Positions 7,656 to 56,702 of a DNA stretch of 64,000 bases are shown here, piece after piece (within the stretch, counting starts at the first letter, position 1; each line of letters begins with the position of its first letter). Both the position numbers and the translations under genes were made by a program. The notes under the pieces are model-generated. The model saw only the letters and a program-made list of their open reading frames with translations. It was not told where the DNA came from and did not search any database. Source of the stretch: Bacterioplanes sp. (GTDB taxonomy: Bacteria; Pseudomonadota; Gammaproteobacteria; Pseudomonadales; Oceanobacteraceae). The DNA lies in NCBI GenBank assembly GCA_014859445.1, contig JACUUC010000005.1, positions 1-64,000 on the forward strand. The letters run 5' to 3'.

Positions 7656-9059
7656 TTACTGCTCATTCGGTTTGTAGTTACGACGCCGTGGGCGTGAACG
7701 GTTACGGCTACGGCGTGGTCGTTCATCATGCTCCGTCACGTGCTCGCCAGTGTCTTCGAAGCGGGGTTTGTTGGCACGCACTTCGTGTGGAAATTGCTCT
7801 TGCAGTTTGGTCCAAAAAGCGCCCAAGTTGGCCAAGTTCTCACCGGACTGTTCGCGCAATAAAATAAAGTCATACGCCGCGCGGAAGCGAGGGTGCGATA
7901 GCAATTCTTGGCAGCGCCGCGACTGCGTTTTGGCCATACGCAATTGCAACTCCCATATTTCTCGCATCGGGATAGAGAGGCGTTTGGGGATGGCCGCACT
8001 TCGGATTTGTTGTGACAGAGCACGATCGGCTGCTTTTTGCAGCGCGGGGTAGGGAGGAAGCCCCGTTTGCTCAAATTCGGCTTTTAAACGAACGACTTGA
8101 GGCCAGAGCAAGGCCGCAAGGAAAAAGTACGGTGTTACCGATTTGCCTGCTTGAATGCGAACATCGGTATTGGCCATGGTGTTTTCAACCAGAATGAGTG
8201 TTTCTGGCTGTAAGCGAATGCACTGCTCGGTGGCCGGGAACAAGGGTTCAAAGAGGTGATGTTCACGTAATAAGCGCAACGTTTCCAGCGCACGACCATG
8301 CAGGAATAATTTGAGAATTTCTTCAAATAAGCGGGCGGCAGGCACTTGCTGTAAGAGTGGTGCCATGGCTTTGATTGGCGCTGCCGTTTGTTTTTCGATG
8401 GTGAATTGCAGTTTCGCGGCAAATCGTACGGCTCTGAGCATGCGTACCGGATCTTCGCGATAACGCGTTTCTGGATCACCAATTAACCGAATCCGATGTT
8501 GTTGTAAGTCTTCCCAGCCTCCCGCATACGCATGCACACTGAAATCGGCAATGTCGTAATACAACGCGTTAATGGTGAAGTCACGACGCATGGCATCTTC
8601 GTCTTTGCTGCCATAGACGTTGTCGCGCAAAATCATGCCTTGCTCGCCGGTTGCCGCGGTTTTTTGTGACACTTCATCGGAGTGAGGTGCGCGGAAAGTC
8701 GCGACTTCGATCACATCACGGCCAAACACCACGTGTACCAGTTTAAAGCGGCGGCCAATTAAGCGTGAATTACGGAATAAATGATTGACCTGTTCGGGGG
8801 TGGCATCCGTCGCCACGTCAAAATCCTTGGGGTCCAGTCCGAGTAACGTGTCGCGAACTCCGCCACCGACCAGCAATGCCTGATAACCGGCATTGTGCAA
8901 TCGGTACAGTACCTTAAGGGCATTGTCGCTTAAGTGATCGCGGCTGATGCTGTGCTGGTCACGTGGAATACGTTCCAACAACACCTGCTGAGCAGGTTTG
9001 CGTTGAAAGAATTGACGTATTTTACGACCGGAATTTTTCAGTGGATTAATCAAAGGAAT
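7656..9059 (-). CDS. pcnB: Poly(A) polymerase I, probable ATT start
   Basis: About 467 residues; adds 3' poly(A) tails that promote RNA decay. The nucleotidyltransferase core is clear: VGGGVRDTLLG, DFDVATDATPEQV with the catalytic Asp pair, RRDFTINALYYD and DPVRMLRAVRFAAKL. The C terminus is Arg-rich (RRSRNRSRPRRR). No ATG or GTG lies at a fitting position. The frame is open to a TTG at 9128, but that codon sits in the T tract of the preceding terminator. An ATT at 9059 gives 31 residues before PRDQHSIS, close to E. coli PcnB, which is known to start at AUU. Start choice is inference; other candidates are ATT 9050 and TTG 9053. Confidence 0.93.
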   Translation of the reverse strand: MPLINPLKNSGRKIRQFFQRKPAQQVLLERIPRDQHSISRDHLSDNALKVLYRLHNAGYQALLVGGGVRDTLLGLDPKDFDVATDATPEQVNHLFRNSRLIGRRFKLVHVVFGRDVIEVATFRAPHSDEVSQKTAATGEQGMILRDNVYGSKDEDAMRRDFTINALYYDIADFSVHAYAGGWEDLQQHRIRLIGDPETRYREDPVRMLRAVRFAAKLQFTIEKQTAAPIKAMAPLLQQVPAARLFEEILKLFLHGRALETLRLLREHHLFEPLFPATEQCIRLQPETLILVENTMANTDVRIQAGKSVTPYFFLAALLWPQVVRLKAEFEQTGLPPYPALQKAADRALSQQIRSAAIPKRLSIPMREIWELQLRMAKTQSRRCQELLSHPRFRAAYDFILLREQSGENLANLGAFWTKLQEQFPHEVRANKPRFEDTGEHVTEHDERPRRSRNRSRPRRRNYKPNEQ

Positions 9060-9119
9060 AAACCGACTCGCTGGCTGGTGGACAAATAGTGGGATGAGTT
9101 TAACGGGAACGAAACGGCA

Positions 9120-9145
9120 AATAAACAAAAAGCCGCAGAGCGGCT
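9120..9145 (-). terminator. Rho-independent terminator of CrcZ-like RNA B
   Basis: Stem agccgc/gcggct (9131-9136 and 9140-9145) with a 3-base loop; the minus-strand transcript continues into TTTTTGTTTATTT. It should end the small RNA and limit read-through into pcnB. Confidence 0.8.
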
Positions 9146-9396
9146 TCGTCAGGTATCCATTTTATTGTTATTAACTTCCCGAGAGCTGGGCGAACCTGTT
9201 GTTGTGAATAAACAATCTGGCCCGATATTATTTTTATTGTGGGCGGTTGTTGCGTACTCATAACAGCGTGTTCATTTCTCAGGTCTCTTGTTGTTTTTGT
9301 AGGAGGAGACCTTTGCAACCTCATAGTTATTGTTATTGTGAGGTTGTTACTTGAAGCTGAGTCGTTGTTATTTTTATCGGTGATTCGTGCTTCGTA
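9122..9396 (-). ncRNA. CrcZ-like sRNA B (pcnB-proximal)
   Basis: Predicted RNA of about 275 nt, from 12 bases after the sigma-54 -12 element to the terminator next to pcnB. It sits between cbrB and pcnB, the location of crcZ in Pseudomonas. It has at least five CA motifs (AAYAAYAA; on the plus strand TTRTTRTT) at 9162-9172, 9228-9235 (one degenerate position), 9288-9295, 9327-9338 and 9365-9372. Two are presented in hairpin loops: stem 9281-9287/9306-9312, and an 8-bp stem 9316-9323/9339-9346. CrcZ of Pseudomonas binds Hfq (with Crc) through such motifs and relieves catabolite repression; this role here is inferred. Confidence 0.82.
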
Positions 9397-9406
9397 TTAG
9401 TTATAA

Positions 9407-9423
9407 AGCATTAGCCGTGCCAG
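9407..9423 (-). promoter_or_regulatory. Sigma-54 promoter of sRNA B
   Basis: Minus-strand CTGGCACGGCTAATGCT has GG and GC separated by 10 bases and differs from the RpoN consensus YTGGCACGRNNNTTGCW at one position. Expected +1 near 9396. Confidence 0.88.
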
Positions 9424-9495
9424 CTTTTAAATACCTATTAAAATCAATGGGTTAAGATTATTTCGGAATGGTGGTAGCTGATATCTAGACGAAAG

Positions 9496-9585
9496 TGTTA
9501 CCACAATCGCGCCAAACGGTAACAGTTTTGTAACAGTGTGCGTATTGCGGTAACAGTTCCATCGGCGGTTACGTGGAGCGGTTAC
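9496..9585. promoter_or_regulatory. CbrB-type activator sites upstream of sRNA B
   Basis: TGTTAC at 9496-9501, GTAACA at 9519-9524, 9530-9535 and 9550-9555, and GTTAC at 9568-9572 and 9581-9585 lie 75-165 bases upstream of the sigma-54 promoter. Pseudomonas CbrB is reported to bind TGTTAC/GTAACA half sites. The same words recur upstream of sRNA A. Confidence 0.65.
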
Positions 9586-9599
9586 ATAGGCTGCCGTCA

Positions 9600-9749
9600 A
9601 TGAAACAAGACATGATGTTCAGGTTGTGGTTGATGGCTATTGCGTTGCGAATGCCGGTACTGGCGGCGGATGTGGCCTGCGAAATGCGGAAACATTGCGA
9701 TGGTGTGCGAAATGTGAACGTCCAAAAAGAAGAAAACCGATTGGTTTAG
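9600..9749 (+). CDS. Possible 49-residue secreted peptide (doubtful)
   Basis: A short plus-strand frame between the two small RNA units. It encodes MKQDMMFRLWLMAIALRM and then PVLAADVACEM, which looks like a short signal peptide with an Ala-rich cleavage site, and leaves a charged peptide with two Cys. The Shine-Dalgarno is weak (AGG about 10 bases upstream), the hydrophobic core is broken by Arg17, and the stop lies inside the sRNA A terminator stem. It may be chance. No family is recognised. Confidence 0.2.
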   Translation: MKQDMMFRLWLMAIALRMPVLAADVACEMRKHCDGVRNVNVQKEENRLV

Positions 9750-9908
9750 GAGCACTTGTTGCGCTTAAACCAATCGGCTGTCAGTGAGCATTGTTATTGT
9801 TATTTGCTACTCTAAGGCCATTTATTATTTTTGCAGTTGGCCGAGATCACATTCACCGCATTTTTTATTGTTATTGAGTGCCGTCATGTGATCGTTGTTA
9901 TTGCTATG
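9724..9908 (-). ncRNA. CrcZ-like sRNA A (cbrB-proximal)
   Basis: Predicted RNA of about 185 nt from its own sigma-54 promoter to its own terminator. CA motifs (plus-strand TTRTTRTT) occur at 9791-9802, around 9822-9829, at 9865-9876 and at 9894-9902. The 9865-9876 motif lies inside the loop of an 8-bp stem (9845-9852 with 9886-9893). It shares design but little linear sequence with sRNA B. Some Pseudomonas carry more than one RNA of this class (CrcY, CrcX), usually at separate loci; a tandem arrangement is unusual. Function (Hfq/Crc titration under CbrB control) is inferred. Confidence 0.78.
9725..9777 (-). terminator. Rho-independent terminator of CrcZ-like RNA A
   Basis: A perfect 12-bp stem (9737-9748 and 9766-9777) followed on the minus strand by TTTTCTTCTTTTT. 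It closes the cbrB-proximal RNA. Confidence 0.88.
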
Positions 9909-9918
9909 TTTTATATAA

Positions 9919-9935
9919 AGCGATTCTCGTGCCAA
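9919..9935 (-). promoter_or_regulatory. Sigma-54 promoter of sRNA A
   Basis: Minus-strand TTGGCACGAGAATCGCT keeps the GG-N10-GC spacing and differs from the RpoN consensus at one position in the -12 element. Expected +1 near 9908. Confidence 0.85.
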
Positions 9936-10093
9936 CTTTTTTATTTTGCCGGAATTTACCGGGCGGCTCTGATTTATCCTTATAAATCAATGGCTTAGAT
10001 ATATTTATTGTGCGCAGCGCGTTCTCTTCGGTGTATTTTGATAGCGATGCGGGCGCAGTTACGGGAACTTTTTTCAAGTGTGTGTGGTGTGCA

Positions 10094-10177
10094 GTAACAC
10101 TCTCGGTAACACTTTGGTCGTATGGGTGGTAACACATCACGGTAACACGTTGCCGTAACACCCGACGTGTGTGTTAC
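10094..10177. promoter_or_regulatory. CbrB-type activator sites upstream of sRNA A
   Basis: Five GTAACA words (10094-10099, 10106-10111, 10129-10134, 10142-10147, 10155-10160) and one TGTTAC (10172-10177) cluster 160-245 bases upstream of the sigma-54 promoter and end 13 bases before the cbrB stop codon. The spacing suits an enhancer for an NtrC-family activator. Confidence 0.68.
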
Positions 10178-10190
10178 GGCGATCAATTGG

Positions 10191-11594
10191 CTACTTGCTG
10201 CTCTTCTTGCGAGGAATACCAAGGCGTTGGCGTCGCTCCCATAAGCTTTTGCGAGAGATGCCCAGTTTTCGAGCTAAGTCGGTTTCGGTCATGTTGGCTT
10301 CGTTTTCAAGGACGAAGTGCACAAAATAGTCATCGAGCGACAAATCACCTTGTTCTGCTTGCGTGTCTGATGGCTGTTGCGCGGGATTGTGCAGCAGATT
10401 TTCTTGCAGTGTGGGGTTCACGTACCGATCCGCAGCGCTTTCGATACCGAGTAGGTCAGCGGTAATGGGTTGGCCTTCATCCACCAGAATGACGGCACGC
10501 TCGACCGCATTTTCCAGCTCTCGCACATTACCTGGCCAATGATAATCGAGTATGGCCTGCTGAGTTGCTTGACTAAATTGCAAGGCAGGCAAGTGCATTT
10601 TGTCGCAGTTGCGTTGCAGCATGAATTCGGCCAGTTCCAGCACGTCATGACCGCGTTCGCGCAGCGGTGGTAAGCGTAGCTCAACCACATTGAGGCGATA
10701 GTACAAATCTTCGCGAAATTCGCCACGACTGGCCAAGTCTTTCAGGTTGCGATGCGTTGCCGCAATGAGACGGACATTCACTTTGATGCTCTGTACCGAG
10801 CCGACTCGACGAATTTCGCCTTCTTGCAATACCCGCAATAAGCGTGCTTGCGCCTCTAATGGTAGTTCACCAATTTCGTCCAAAAATAATGTACCGCCGT
10901 CGGCAGCTTCAACCAAACCTTGACGAACGCTATTGGCTCCGGTGAACGCCCCCTTTTCGTGACCAAACAATTCTGATTCGATCAGTGTTTCTGGAATCGC
11001 GGCGCAGTTGACGGAAATAATTTGACCTTGTTTTCGATGACTTTGGTTGTGCAGCGCTTTGGCGACCAGCTCTTTACCTGTGCCGGACTCCCCCAGTATC
11101 AATACCGTGGCGTCGGTGGGAGCAACTTTGCTGATTTTTTTGAACAGCAGCAACATGGGTTCGCAACTGCCGATAATGCCACTGACGGGATAATCTTTGT
11201 GAACCGACTGTTGCAATGGCTCTGGATTATTCGGTTGCTGGGTGAGTGTGGCTTCGGTCAGGATACGCTCAACGGCCTGCAGCAATTCGTCATGATTGAA
11301 CGGTTTCGCAATGTAATCGACGGCACCCATTTTCATGGCATCCACCGCGGAGCGTAAACTGGCGTAGCTGGTCATGATCAGTACGGGGATTTGCGGCGCC
11401 AGTTCAATCAATTCGGTGCCGTGACCACCCGGCAAGCGTAAGTCGCTGATAATAAGATCAAACGATGCCAACGGTTGTTGTTTAGCGGCATCCAGTGAGT
11501 CGACATCCGTTACTTGATAATGATGGCGCTCAAGCAAACGGCGCAGCGTTTGACGAATGATCACTTCATCTTCAACAACGAGAATATGGCTCAT
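10191..11594 (-). CDS. cbrB: CbrB-type sigma-54 response regulator
   Basis: A 467-residue NtrC-family activator. The receiver domain (1-120) has Asp51 in LIISDLRLPGG and a Lys in IAKPF. The central AAA+ domain (about 140-375) shows Walker A GESGTGKE, the sigma-54 contact motif GAFTGA and Walker B GGTLFLDEIGE. A Fis-type helix-turn-helix closes the protein (DLARKLGISRKSLWERRQRL). It follows a CbrA-like kinase with an ATGA overlap, and downstream lie two sigma-54 promoters with repeated TGTTAC/GTAACA sites, as at the Pseudomonas crcZ locus. CbrB responds to carbon/nitrogen status there. Confidence 0.93.
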   Translation of the reverse strand: MSHILVVEDEVIIRQTLRRLLERHHYQVTDVDSLDAAKQQPLASFDLIISDLRLPGGHGTELIELAPQIPVLIMTSYASLRSAVDAMKMGAVDYIAKPFNHDELLQAVERILTEATLTQQPNNPEPLQQSVHKDYPVSGIIGSCEPMLLLFKKISKVAPTDATVLILGESGTGKELVAKALHNQSHRKQGQIISVNCAAIPETLIESELFGHEKGAFTGANSVRQGLVEAADGGTLFLDEIGELPLEAQARLLRVLQEGEIRRVGSVQSIKVNVRLIAATHRNLKDLASRGEFREDLYYRLNVVELRLPPLRERGHDVLELAEFMLQRNCDKMHLPALQFSQATQQAILDYHWPGNVRELENAVERAVILVDEGQPITADLLGIESAADRYVNPTLQENLLHNPAQQPSDTQAEQGDLSLDDYFVHFVLENEANMTETDLARKLGISRKSLWERRQRLGIPRKKSSK

Positions 11595-14524
11595 GCAGTG
11601 GGTTCCAATGGTTCGGGTGGATGAAATCGCGGTAAGCTGACTTTAACACAAGTGCCACGCCCTTCGCTGACCGGACTTTCAAAGGCTATGTGCCCATAGT
11701 GCTCTTCAACAATGCTGTATACCAACGCCAGGCCCAATCCAGTGCCCTGACCGACTTCTTTGGTGGTAAAGAATGGCTCGAACAAGCGATCAATGTGTTC
11801 GGCTGATATGCCGTGACCTTCATCGACAATGCGTAACGTCACTTGGTGTTCGTCGGCCTCGGTACTGGCCACAATGCATTGCCCCGGTTCACTGGCATCG
11901 CGGGCGTTACCCAGCAAGTTCACAAACACTTGTACCAGGCGCTGTGCATCACCTAATACCAACAGTTCGGGATTGCAATCATTGATGAAGCGAATGTCGT
12001 GGCTACGTTGACTCAGTTTGAGCAATTGCATGGCTTCATGAATGCAGTGGTGTAGGGTGACGATTTCATGTTCGGTGCTGTGATGGCCGGCGTGAGCAAA
12101 ATTCATTAGCGATTGCACGATGCGCGTTACCCGCTGCGTTTGCTGCTGTATCTGCTCGGCCATCTCGATCAATTCTGGATTATCGGTTTCGTAGCGGATT
12201 AATTGCGCAAGGCTATCGATGCCGGTAATGGGATTGCCAATTTCATGGGCGACGCCAGCGGCGAGTCGTCCGATGGAGGCCAGTCGTTCGCTGTGCATCA
12301 ATTCGTCTTCGAGCAATTGTGTATCGGTTTGATCTTCCATCAACACAACAATGCCGCCTGGTTGACCGCCACTGGCTTTGATCAGTGCTTTGTGCAAGCT
12401 ATACCAGCGCGGTCTCGCTTCAATATCAATGCGTTTTTTGTATTCATGGGTGCTTTGGCTATGCACAAATTCAAGTAATAGTGTATTCCAAGGGTTGGGT
12501 AATTTGGCTAAGTGAGAGCCAGTAATGTCATCGCTGTGAATGTGAGTCAGATCCGTCATGGCCTGATTCCAGAGCAAAATTTCCCCGTCATCGGCCAAGG
12601 AACACACGCCCATTGGCAAACGTTCAAGCGTTTGTCGATGGTAGCGACGGAGATTGTCCAATTCGCCAGCCAAGCCACTTAAGCGATCGTGAAATCCTTC
12701 TAGGCGTTGTTCAATTTGATAAATGTCTTCACTCAACTCGGCATTGTCTTGCAACGGCAAGGAGCGGCTGATGATATCGTGCGCCACGGTCGGTCCCATT
12801 AACCCCGACAAGTTGGCCTCTAGTCGAGCACGTAAGCGTCGCAAGGCATAGGGGCGGTCTTCATAAGAGGGCAGCTTAAGATCGGTCAGTGCTTGATACA
12901 CCTCGCGTTCGGCCACGTAACGGCCAAGGGGTTTGCTTAATGCGATGATGACGTCATTGGAGTTGGTTGCTTGCAGTGGCCGCCGTGACGGCCGTGACAT
13001 GGTATCAATGGAACAGGCATCGGCGGCGGCCACTTCGGAGGCTTTGCGGCGGGTTATTAGGCTAATGAATACGAAACAGGTGAAATTCGCCAAAAACGAC
13101 AACATCGCCGGTAAGTGCCAGTTGCTTTCATCCACCGCCGGTAACGGCAGTGGCCATTGCCAACCTAAGCTCAGTTGCGCAAATGGCAACAGTAAGCCGT
13201 AAAACCAAATGCCGATCCCGATCAGTAGGCCGACGGAGAAGCCTTTTCGGTTGGCTTTCGGCCAATAGAGGACACCGAGCACACCCGGTAAAAATTGTAA
13301 GGACGCGACAAAGGCGAGTAGCCCTAGTCGGTTCAGCTGTAAGTCGGCACCCACCCAAACATAGAACACGTAGGCCAGTAACAGAATGAGGGTAATCAAA
13401 CTGCGACGAACCCAGAGCAACCAGCGATAAAAGTCGTAACGTGGTGTGGGTTTGTAAATGGGCAATACAATGTGATTCAGTAACATAGCGGCCATGGCCA
13501 ATGTCATCACGATGATGATGCCTGAGGCGGCGGCCAAACCACCTAAAAAGGTCAAAATGACCAAGCTGGGTGAATTGAAATGAATGCCGATCCCTAATGC
13601 ATAGTACTCAGCCGGTGTGTCAACGGCTAAATAAATACCTGCCCAGAGAATGGGCGGCACCGCGATGGCCATCAGCAGTAGCAGTAATGGAAATCCCCAA
13701 CTGGCAGGGCCAATGGCTTGATGATTGATGTTTTCGGTAAAGGTCATGTGGAACATGTGTGGCATGACGATGGCGGCGGCAAAAAACACCAATAACAACG
13801 TACGCCAAGGTCCTTCTTGCAGCGTAATCTGGTGGTTTAGCAATTGCTCTTGATGGCTGCTCAGCCAGTGTTCGAGCCCGCCGATGGGTGCAAACACCCC
13901 CCACAATACGACGGCGGTTAACACCAGTAATGCCACCAACTTCAACAGCGTTTCAAAGGCCAGCGCCATGACCAGCCCTTCGTGCTTTTCTCGCGGCGAC
14001 ACATGGCGTGCCCCAAAAAGCACGGCAAACACAATCATGATGACACAGAAACCAAAAGCCAATTGTGTGGCTTGCCACTCACTGTTGAGCAGGTGCAAGG
14101 TTTCGGCAATCGCTCGCAATTGCAATGTCAGCATGGGGACCACCACCGCCAACATAAATAAGGTGACGAGAATGCCGGCTAAACGACTGCGATAGCGGAA
14201 GGCCAGTAAATCGGCTAAGGAACTGAGTTGGTAGATTCGAGTGATGTTCAGTAGTGGGCGCAGCAAAATCGGTGATAACACAAACGCCCCCGAAATGCCT
14301 AAATAGTAGGCAAGGAAGCCGTAACCATACTCGTTCGCCATACCGACCGAGCCATAAAACGCCCAAGCGCTGGCATACACACCCAGAGAAAAGACATACA
14401 CCAGTGGATGGCGAACCCAGCGCCGTGGCAGCCATTGTTGTTCAACCGCGTAAGCGACCAAAAACAAGCTGCCTAGGTAGGCGAGAATAATAAAACCGAG
14501 CTGGCCGAGACTAAAGCTCATCAT
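11591..14524 (-). CDS. cbrA: CbrA: SSS-transporter/histidine kinase fusion
   Basis: A 977-residue inner-membrane sensor. Residues 1 to about 510 form a sodium/solute symporter-like domain with about 13 membrane segments. A linker and a PAS-like region (about 620-720) follow, then the kinase: H-box AAGVAHEIGNPITGI with His760, N-box VNLLGNARDAS, and G-boxes VDEGHGIS and GQGTGLGLALV. Length is close to Pseudomonas CbrA. The start (ATGATG, 14524 or 14521) overlaps the small cbrX-like gene by 11-14 bases, and the stop overlaps cbrB, so all three genes are coupled. CbrA phosphorylates CbrB; histidine transport is reported for the Pseudomonas protein. Confidence 0.94.
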   Translation of the reverse strand: MMSFSLGQLGFIILAYLGSLFLVAYAVEQQWLPRRWVRHPLVYVFSLGVYASAWAFYGSVGMANEYGYGFLAYYLGISGAFVLSPILLRPLLNITRIYQLSSLADLLAFRYRSRLAGILVTLFMLAVVVPMLTLQLRAIAETLHLLNSEWQATQLAFGFCVIMIVFAVLFGARHVSPREKHEGLVMALAFETLLKLVALLVLTAVVLWGVFAPIGGLEHWLSSHQEQLLNHQITLQEGPWRTLLLVFFAAAIVMPHMFHMTFTENINHQAIGPASWGFPLLLLLMAIAVPPILWAGIYLAVDTPAEYYALGIGIHFNSPSLVILTFLGGLAAASGIIIVMTLAMAAMLLNHIVLPIYKPTPRYDFYRWLLWVRRSLITLILLLAYVFYVWVGADLQLNRLGLLAFVASLQFLPGVLGVLYWPKANRKGFSVGLLIGIGIWFYGLLLPFAQLSLGWQWPLPLPAVDESNWHLPAMLSFLANFTCFVFISLITRRKASEVAAADACSIDTMSRPSRRPLQATNSNDVIIALSKPLGRYVAEREVYQALTDLKLPSYEDRPYALRRLRARLEANLSGLMGPTVAHDIISRSLPLQDNAELSEDIYQIEQRLEGFHDRLSGLAGELDNLRRYHRQTLERLPMGVCSLADDGEILLWNQAMTDLTHIHSDDITGSHLAKLPNPWNTLLLEFVHSQSTHEYKKRIDIEARPRWYSLHKALIKASGGQPGGIVVLMEDQTDTQLLEDELMHSERLASIGRLAAGVAHEIGNPITGIDSLAQLIRYETDNPELIEMAEQIQQQTQRVTRIVQSLMNFAHAGHHSTEHEIVTLHHCIHEAMQLLKLSQRSHDIRFINDCNPELLVLGDAQRLVQVFVNLLGNARDASEPGQCIVASTEADEHQVTLRIVDEGHGISAEHIDRLFEPFFTTKEVGQGTGLGLALVYSIVEEHYGHIAFESPVSEGRGTCVKVSLPRFHPPEPLEPTA

Positions 14525-56344: not shown

Positions 56345-56702
56345 TGGTGGAGATGGCGGGATTTGAACCCGCGTCCGCCAATCCTCCACTAGAGGATCTA
56401 CATGCTTAGCCTTCTTTATTGATTTAGTCGAGTACGGCCCAAGAGGCAGGGCGTAGCCAACGAGCTCGATTGAGTTTTAACCGTTCGGCTCCGAGCGAAG
56501 CGTCCAGGCGATCCTGTAGGGCGATGCCCTCGTCCGCTAGTTACAGGCACCTAGCTTCGGAGGTTAGCAGGGATTAAGCTGCTAGTGCGTAGTTTTCGTC
56601 GTTTGCGACTATAACTTTGTATAACGTTTATTAACGAGATCGCTATACGCTCTCGGCATGCACCCATAGCTTTGTAATCAACGTCGAATCCTAATCATCC
56701 CC
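56345..56702 (-). ncRNA. ssrA: Transfer-messenger RNA (tmRNA)
   Basis: A 358-nt RNA. The 5' end is GGGGATGATTAGGATTCGACG and the 3' end holds the T-arm GGTTCAAATCCCGCC and an encoded CCA (56345-56347). The tag frame at 56574-56606 encodes ANDENYALAA followed by a stop, the common gammaproteobacterial degradation tag. With SmpB it frees stalled ribosomes and marks the product for proteolysis. smpB lies 123 bases upstream on the same strand. Confidence 0.97.

Follow-up and report, generated by a model that had tools for sequence, protein, structure and literature searches.

Two predicted CrcZ-type RNA units in tandem between cbrB and pcnB in Bacterioplanes and related genomes

Background

In Pseudomonas, CrcZ is a single unit between cbrB and pcnB. 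According to two papers, it is placed behind cbrB and has a sigma-54 promoter, CbrB subsites, an IHF site, CA motifs in loops and a terminator (PMC6296734, PMC5429807), and all of these parts recur at the locus described here. The subsite sequences TGTTAC and GTAACA were defined in P. putida, where a single forward subsite and two reverse ones belong to crcZ (PMC6296734). A second CbrB-driven CA-motif RNA per genome, CrcY or CrcX, is described for P. putida, A. vinelandii and P. syringae in a 2022 review (PMC8871633), and the A. vinelandii crcY is placed at a separate locus in PMC5429807. For A. vinelandii, transcriptional read-through from cbrB into crcZ is also described (PMC6292655). CbrAB itself is said to be exclusive to the Pseudomonadaceae (PMC6296734, PMC8871633).

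The locus from Bacterioplanes sp. has, in contrast to the single CrcZ of Pseudomonas, two units that models built from Pseudomonas do not recognise, and its second unit lies in tandem with the first inside the cbrB-pcnB gap, whereas crcY of A. vinelandii stands apart. The first unit, here called unit A, is only about 185 nt long, unlike Pseudomonas CrcZ, and the second, unit B, has three forward subsites and one reverse, where P. putida crcZ has one and two. Literature searches that lay mostly outside subscription papers found no paper on CrcZ in Marinobacter, Cellvibrio or Oleispira, none on the Crc family, small RNA and Oceanospirillales, and no title on a tandem Crc RNA array among the matches listed. 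Filiatrault 2013, reportedly a survey of Crc RNAs in Pseudomonas, may describe a tandem case.

Results and discussion

The window analysed here is the whole stretch of 64,000 nucleotides from Bacterioplanes sp.; coordinates are window positions, and the locus lies on the minus strand throughout. The open reading frames of cbrA (11591..14524), a sensor kinase of 977 aa with PAS, HisKA and HATPase domains in Pfam and no transporter domain by Pfam at E 0.001, and of cbrB (10191..11594), a sigma-54-dependent response regulator of 467 aa (Sigma54_activat and Response_reg, Pfam), are followed by pcnB for poly(A) polymerase I (7656..9128; TIGR01942 514 bits, and Pfam). Between the end of cbrB at 10191 and pcnB there are two CrcZ-type units of like orientation, separated by about 330 nt. 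Unit A (9724-9908) is complete with CbrB-type subsites, an IHF consensus, a sigma-54 promoter, CA clusters and a terminator, and unit B, downstream of it at about 9396-9129, has the same set of parts and is likewise complete. The listed TTG start of pcnB falls inside the terminator tail of the gap, so that the true start is probably downstream.

I defined a unit as a sigma-54 element scoring at least 9/12 that has two or more CA clusters within 330 nt, the first of them no farther off than 80 nt. On both strands of the 64 kb window, units A and B are the only matches to this definition. Among 2000 dinucleotide shuffles of the cbrB-pcnB gap, 1988 gave no unit, 12 gave one and none gave two, while 50 shuffles for each of 42 gaps from the same family gave no unit in 2083 cases and one in 17. 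As the combination of parts is absent elsewhere in the window and no shuffle produced a double, the tandem arrangement of units is confirmed. A search of the Bacterioplanes genome itself with a sequence model of promoter and first CA motif scored 44.6 bits for unit A and 41.9 bits for unit B, and no further clear unit was found among the 150 of 716 first-look candidates that were scored, the next score being 18.2 bits. The original prediction, that a complete second unit with about four CA motifs and a 12-bp terminator lies directly upstream of the first RNA, is borne out by a promoter at 9934-9919, four CA clusters and a 12-bp stem in the terminator at 9777-9737. I conclude that 9724-9908 is very probably a real CrcZ-type RNA gene, conserved and equipped with a promoter and a terminator of its own, and that it stands in tandem with another such gene.

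The cbrB-pcnB gap was compared, as the original prediction had proposed, across the family to which Bacterioplanes belongs and which appears to include Thalassolituus, whose species T. oleivorans is listed under Oceanospirillaceae by NCBI. cbrB is present in all 44 genomes. Unit counts were made for 42 gaps, with two units in 23, three in 15, four in 2 and one in 2; the last two are the gap of G051, which is cut by a contig end, and that of G007, which is rearranged. All 40 complete gaps, in which pcnB is adjacent, have two to four units (two in 23, three in 15, four in 2). Outside the 42, a contig end cuts the gap of G041 after about 500 bases, in which one unit is seen, and G040 was left out of the counts, its contig ending 143 bases downstream.

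The sigma-54 motif on its own is weak evidence, because loose matches are common: the pattern used has 96 matches with at most two mismatches over the window against 97 expected, and 7 with at most one. Inside the cbrB-pcnB gap, the only matches with at most two mismatches are the elements of the two units, both of the GG-N10-GC type. That of unit A, TGGCACGAGAATCGCT (9919..9934), has one mismatch to the pattern and a similar element at unit 1 of relatives, and that of unit B, TGGCACGGCTAATGCT (9407..9422), has none. Upstream of unit A, the putative CbrB subsites span 10094..10177, with exact copies of GTAACA at 10177 and of TGTTAC at 10160, 10147, 10134, 10111 and 10099, which are 243, 226, 213, 200, 177 and 165 nt upstream of the sigma-54 element. 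Those of unit B span 9496..9555, with TGTTAC at 9555, 9535 and 9524 and GTAACA at 9501, which are 133, 113, 102 and 79 nt upstream of its element. Unit A thus has no exact subsite 60-150 nt upstream, the usual zone, and its subsites are farther out than in most relatives; it is among 3 of the 42 first units of the family with no exact subsite in that zone. All 59 later units and 39 of the 42 first units have one there, counts to be read against exact subsites that are fairly common across the family gaps as a whole (0.49 per 90 nt). The more distal position of the exact subsites in unit A than in unit B is the sole hint of the dose control or different induction thresholds suggested in the original prediction.

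Each unit also has a perfect IHF consensus in reverse orientation between its subsites and its promoter, TAAGCCATTGATT for unit A (9985..9997) and TAACCCATTGATT for unit B (9442..9454). With at most one mismatch allowed, 40 of the family's 42 first units have an IHF site, as do 56 of its 59 later units, compared with 277 of 2020 mononucleotide-shuffled regions. These parts suggest a separate promoter for each unit, which would be driven by sigma-54 and presumably by CbrB. The claim that the two units stand under one regulator is supported by the sequence, by the relatives and by the promoter parts.

The short RNA of unit A (9724..9908, about 185 nt, with its start placed from the promoter) has four CA clusters in the motif search, at 9902-9895, 9875-9862, 9832-9822 and 9804-9791, whereas the long RNA of unit B (9129..9396, its start placed likewise) has five, at 9375-9365, 9337-9327, 9298-9288, 9238-9228 and 9172-9162. 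The predicted fold of unit A consists of three hairpins with CA motifs in large loops, followed by the terminator, and 3 of its 4 clusters are in predicted hairpin loops. The clusters of both units (AANAANAA) have a mean unpaired share of 1.0 in the predicted folds, with folding z values of -4.5 for unit A and -5.3 for unit B. Similar values are seen in 40 genomes: CA motifs there have a mean unpaired share of 0.94 for first units and 0.96 for last units, and 98 of 148 clusters of first units and 138 of 198 of last units fall in predicted hairpin loops.

The terminator of unit A (9737..9777) has a 12-bp stem, CCGATTGGTTTA paired with TAAACCAATCGG (arms 9777-9766 and 9748-9737), with inner pairs and a T-rich tail at 9736-9724; that of unit B is at 9147-9129. 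An automatic terminator scan listed the latter and omitted the former, probably due to its loop limit, and it has no weight alone, as it returned 3 sites against 2.0 in shuffles. My own finders, with their strict rules, missed many stems, that of unit A included. When 14 first units are folded together, the consensus has 25 pairs, of which 11 are kept in one or more sequences despite changes on both sides, and 9 of these 11 belong to the terminator. This fold misses the first two hairpins, and its overall covariation term, -0.52, is small. The MAFFT alignment of the first units is of low quality over stems one and two, so I relied on it for the terminator and the third hairpin only.

These terminators and promoters bear on the question whether the units are transcribed separately. 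One long transcript, starting at the promoter of unit A or at cbrB, could span both and leave the second promoter vestigial, which would fit two units in the same direction with some 330 nt between them, and the read-through described for A. vinelandii (PMC6292655) makes some joint transcript possible in Bacterioplanes as well. I nevertheless consider this quite improbable, as the stem at 9777-9737 shows paired changes in relatives and as the later units of the family have retained exact CbrB subsites (59/59) and IHF sites (56/59). The rearranged genome G007 gives a natural separation of the units that also argues against a single transcript. Here cbrB is still followed by the short unit, and the other one precedes pcnB, 11.6 kb away and on the opposite strand (L271:3981, minus, and L271:15591, plus, in the model search), and both have been retained with their own subsites and promoter.

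The original prediction that the two units share an architecture without obvious likeness in sequence holds as well. Their best local alignment is one CA motif, with a score of 27 where the maximum in 300 shuffles is 28. In a tree of the family's units, which was made with FastTree from low-complexity sequence and rooted at the midpoint, the first units of most genera group together, away from the last units that share their genomes, and some genera have additional copies of their own. On this tree, and with the alignment restricted to one CA motif, I rejected the reading of unit A as a recent copy of unit B. The short units of genera g4 and g6 do not cluster with the remaining short units, and genus g2 shows a mixture; one common origin of the short type is therefore likely, though unproven.

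A sequence model of the short type, built from 14 relatives with the Bacterioplanes genome left out, has its top match in the window at 9877-9735 (41.3 bits, E 3.2e-12), and a long model, built likewise without this genome, matches unit B at 9381-9112 (122 bits, E 3.2e-37); the cross-scores are 15.1 bits for the short model on unit B and 25.8 bits for the long model on unit A. When genus g6 is excluded from training, all 6 of its first units favour the short model and all 6 of its last units the long one, while the classes are blurred in genera g2 and g4. Units A and B look like old paralogues, one of a short and one of a long type.

Since A and B can be aligned at one CA motif only, and since the exact CbrB subsites of unit A are displaced, one might take unit A for a functionless, degenerate duplicate left by a tandem duplication. 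This is very hard to reconcile with a short first and a long last unit in most genera, in which the terminator stem and the CA loops are preserved, with the detection of unit A at E 3.2e-12 by a model made without its own genome, or with its perfect IHF site, and I regard it as the remotest of the alternatives. Alternatively, unit A could have a different job, as a sponge for Hfq alone or as a base-pairing small RNA, induced like CrcZ without acting on Crc; its length and order of hairpins are unlike those of unit B, and the two types are distinct in most genera. However, conservation in the alignment of the 14 first units is highest at the CA motifs and in parts of the terminator, with variable sequence in between, which argues against a base-pairing seed. 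A different job seems improbable.

The best explanation of the locus is, with considerable confidence that is lowered slightly by the weak covariation and by the cross-scores of the short and long models, that both units are separately promoted decoys of Hfq-Crc, driven by CbrB and sigma-54, with unit A the first of two paralogues. When carbon is limiting, phosphorylated CbrB would bind the subsites upstream of each unit, and IHF would bend the DNA so that the sigma-54 RNA polymerase is activated at each. Each RNA would stop at its own terminator and present A-rich CA motifs (AANAANAA), mostly in hairpin loops, that would titrate Hfq-Crc off its target mRNAs and so relieve catabolite repression. 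The computation shows the parts of the promoters, the CA motifs, a predicted structure, the stems of the terminators, their conservation and the presence of CbrA, CbrB, Crc and Hfq, whereas the binding of Hfq-Crc by these RNAs, their dependence on CbrB, the transcript ends of both units and any division of labour between them are deduced. As the short and long types are kept distinct across most genera of the family, they probably differ in output, be it in amount, timing or stability, and would not be mere spare copies.

It should be stressed that the likeness to CrcZ concerns architecture and probable function. The Rfam CrcZ model RF01675 has no match at its gathering threshold in the window, with 16.5 bits for unit B and 14.7 and 12.3 bits for two pieces at unit A against a threshold of 95 bits, and the scores from a model made with 17 Pseudomonadaceae RNAs are 0.2 and -1.4. 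By the Rfam threshold the units fall outside the CrcZ sequence family, whereas the statement that the units would work like CrcZ is well supported by architecture and setting. The sole Rfam match of the window at gathering threshold is a tmRNA gene at 56345-56702 on the minus strand.

Beyond the family, I examined 93 gaps from other families of the order, in a survey that left out 12 of the 110 matching genomes (G058, G066, G088, G094, G097, G102, G130, G131, G134, G154, G156 and G161). One unit is present in 67 of these gaps, none in 16, two in 9 and three in 1; of the 16 without a unit, 7 stop short of pcnB and 9 reach it. For one of these 7, G022, a unit is seen on another contig of the genome, beside pcnB. 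Exactly one unit is found in 17 of 18 named Pseudomonadaceae loci, the remaining one (L122) having no unit, and no pcnB in the stretch examined; four more genomes that group with the named Pseudomonadaceae have one unit each. The tandem pair had been proposed as a new arrangement, and it does differ from the single unit of these 17 loci, but it is not confined to the present genome: it is the norm in the family, where as many as four units occur.

Elsewhere in the order, Dasania has two units. In family f14, G098 has three units behind cbrB (L238), and no unit was called in G034 and G157. The second 'unit' called in G105 (L246) may be false, as its promoter is poor. In G028 (family f8), no unit was called behind cbrB, and the model matches elsewhere, at L272:1239, 1986 and 17646 on the plus strand. 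Two of these matches are about 750 bases apart, and they come with TGTTAC/GTAACA sites and CA motifs, together with an unusual -12 element and, judged by eye, a long inverted repeat ahead of a T-rich stretch.

In a CbrB tree of 189 rows, the family of Bacterioplanes is separate from the named Pseudomonadaceae and forms one clade (support 100). On this quick FastTree tree, which has many weak deep forks, no fewer than 11 changes are required to explain the label 'two or more units', as entered with unitless rows left out and with G007 and G051 as 'one', an entry that may add at most 2 changes. The layout cbrA-cbrB-RNA-pcnB was found in many families of the order, in contrast to the statement in the 2022 review that CbrAB is unique to the Pseudomonadaceae (PMC8871633).

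These observations can be joined in a wider reading, to which I give about an even chance of being right. Starting from a single CrcZ decoy, the family would have built up an array in which two to four CA-motif RNAs, each with its own promoter, fall into two long-lived classes and titrate Hfq-Crc in a graded or staged way; elsewhere in the order, units behind cbrB would have multiplied in a similar manner several times, and the circuit of CbrA, CbrB, decoy, Hfq and Crc would be order-wide and not special to the Pseudomonadaceae as reviews state. As tandem units occur throughout the 40 complete family gaps and the layout in many families, nature offers a series of one, two, three and four units in which to examine how catabolite repression depends on the dose of decoys and on the strength of their promoters, and it is available in a family that appears to hold a marine oil-spill bacterium.

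The partners of such a circuit, CbrA, CbrB, Crc and Hfq, are all encoded in the Bacterioplanes genome. CbrA has 50-79% identity to 15 relatives, and the matches listed include full-length ones in Pseudomonas, Marinobacter, Halomonas, Cellvibrio and others. An exonuclease III gene (L152) was considered as Crc and rejected, as NCBIfam names it ExoIII; a Crc homologue was found via the P. otitidis protein, with 44% identity over 255 residues. Crc and Hfq are each present in 34 of the 35 genomes searched, the miss being a genome that is 75% complete.

Potential targets were sought with the motif AAYAAYAA in 20 genome stretches and the window, about 16% of the genome, with crude gene calls. The motif occurs within 40 nt upstream of the start in 9 of 390 genes, compared with a mean of 1.8 and a maximum of 7 in 100 shuffles, a signal that amounts to nine genes. 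It occurs 40-80 nt upstream in 5 of the 390, and 0-40 nt after the start in 3, which is within the range of the shuffles (maximum 5). Three of the upstream motifs are 33, 33 and 19 nt from the starts at L285:17189 (minus), L281:16433 (plus) and L293:14940 (minus), genes that I take to encode an acyl-CoA ligase and two related hydrolase-like proteins. Finally, at L273:1400-1840 in G003, a CbrB-type promoter (TGTTAC, GTAACA, TGGCACATTTAGTGCA) is followed by a CA motif and then by what looks by eye like a protein gene, possibly a target that would be driven by CbrB and repressed by Hfq-Crc.
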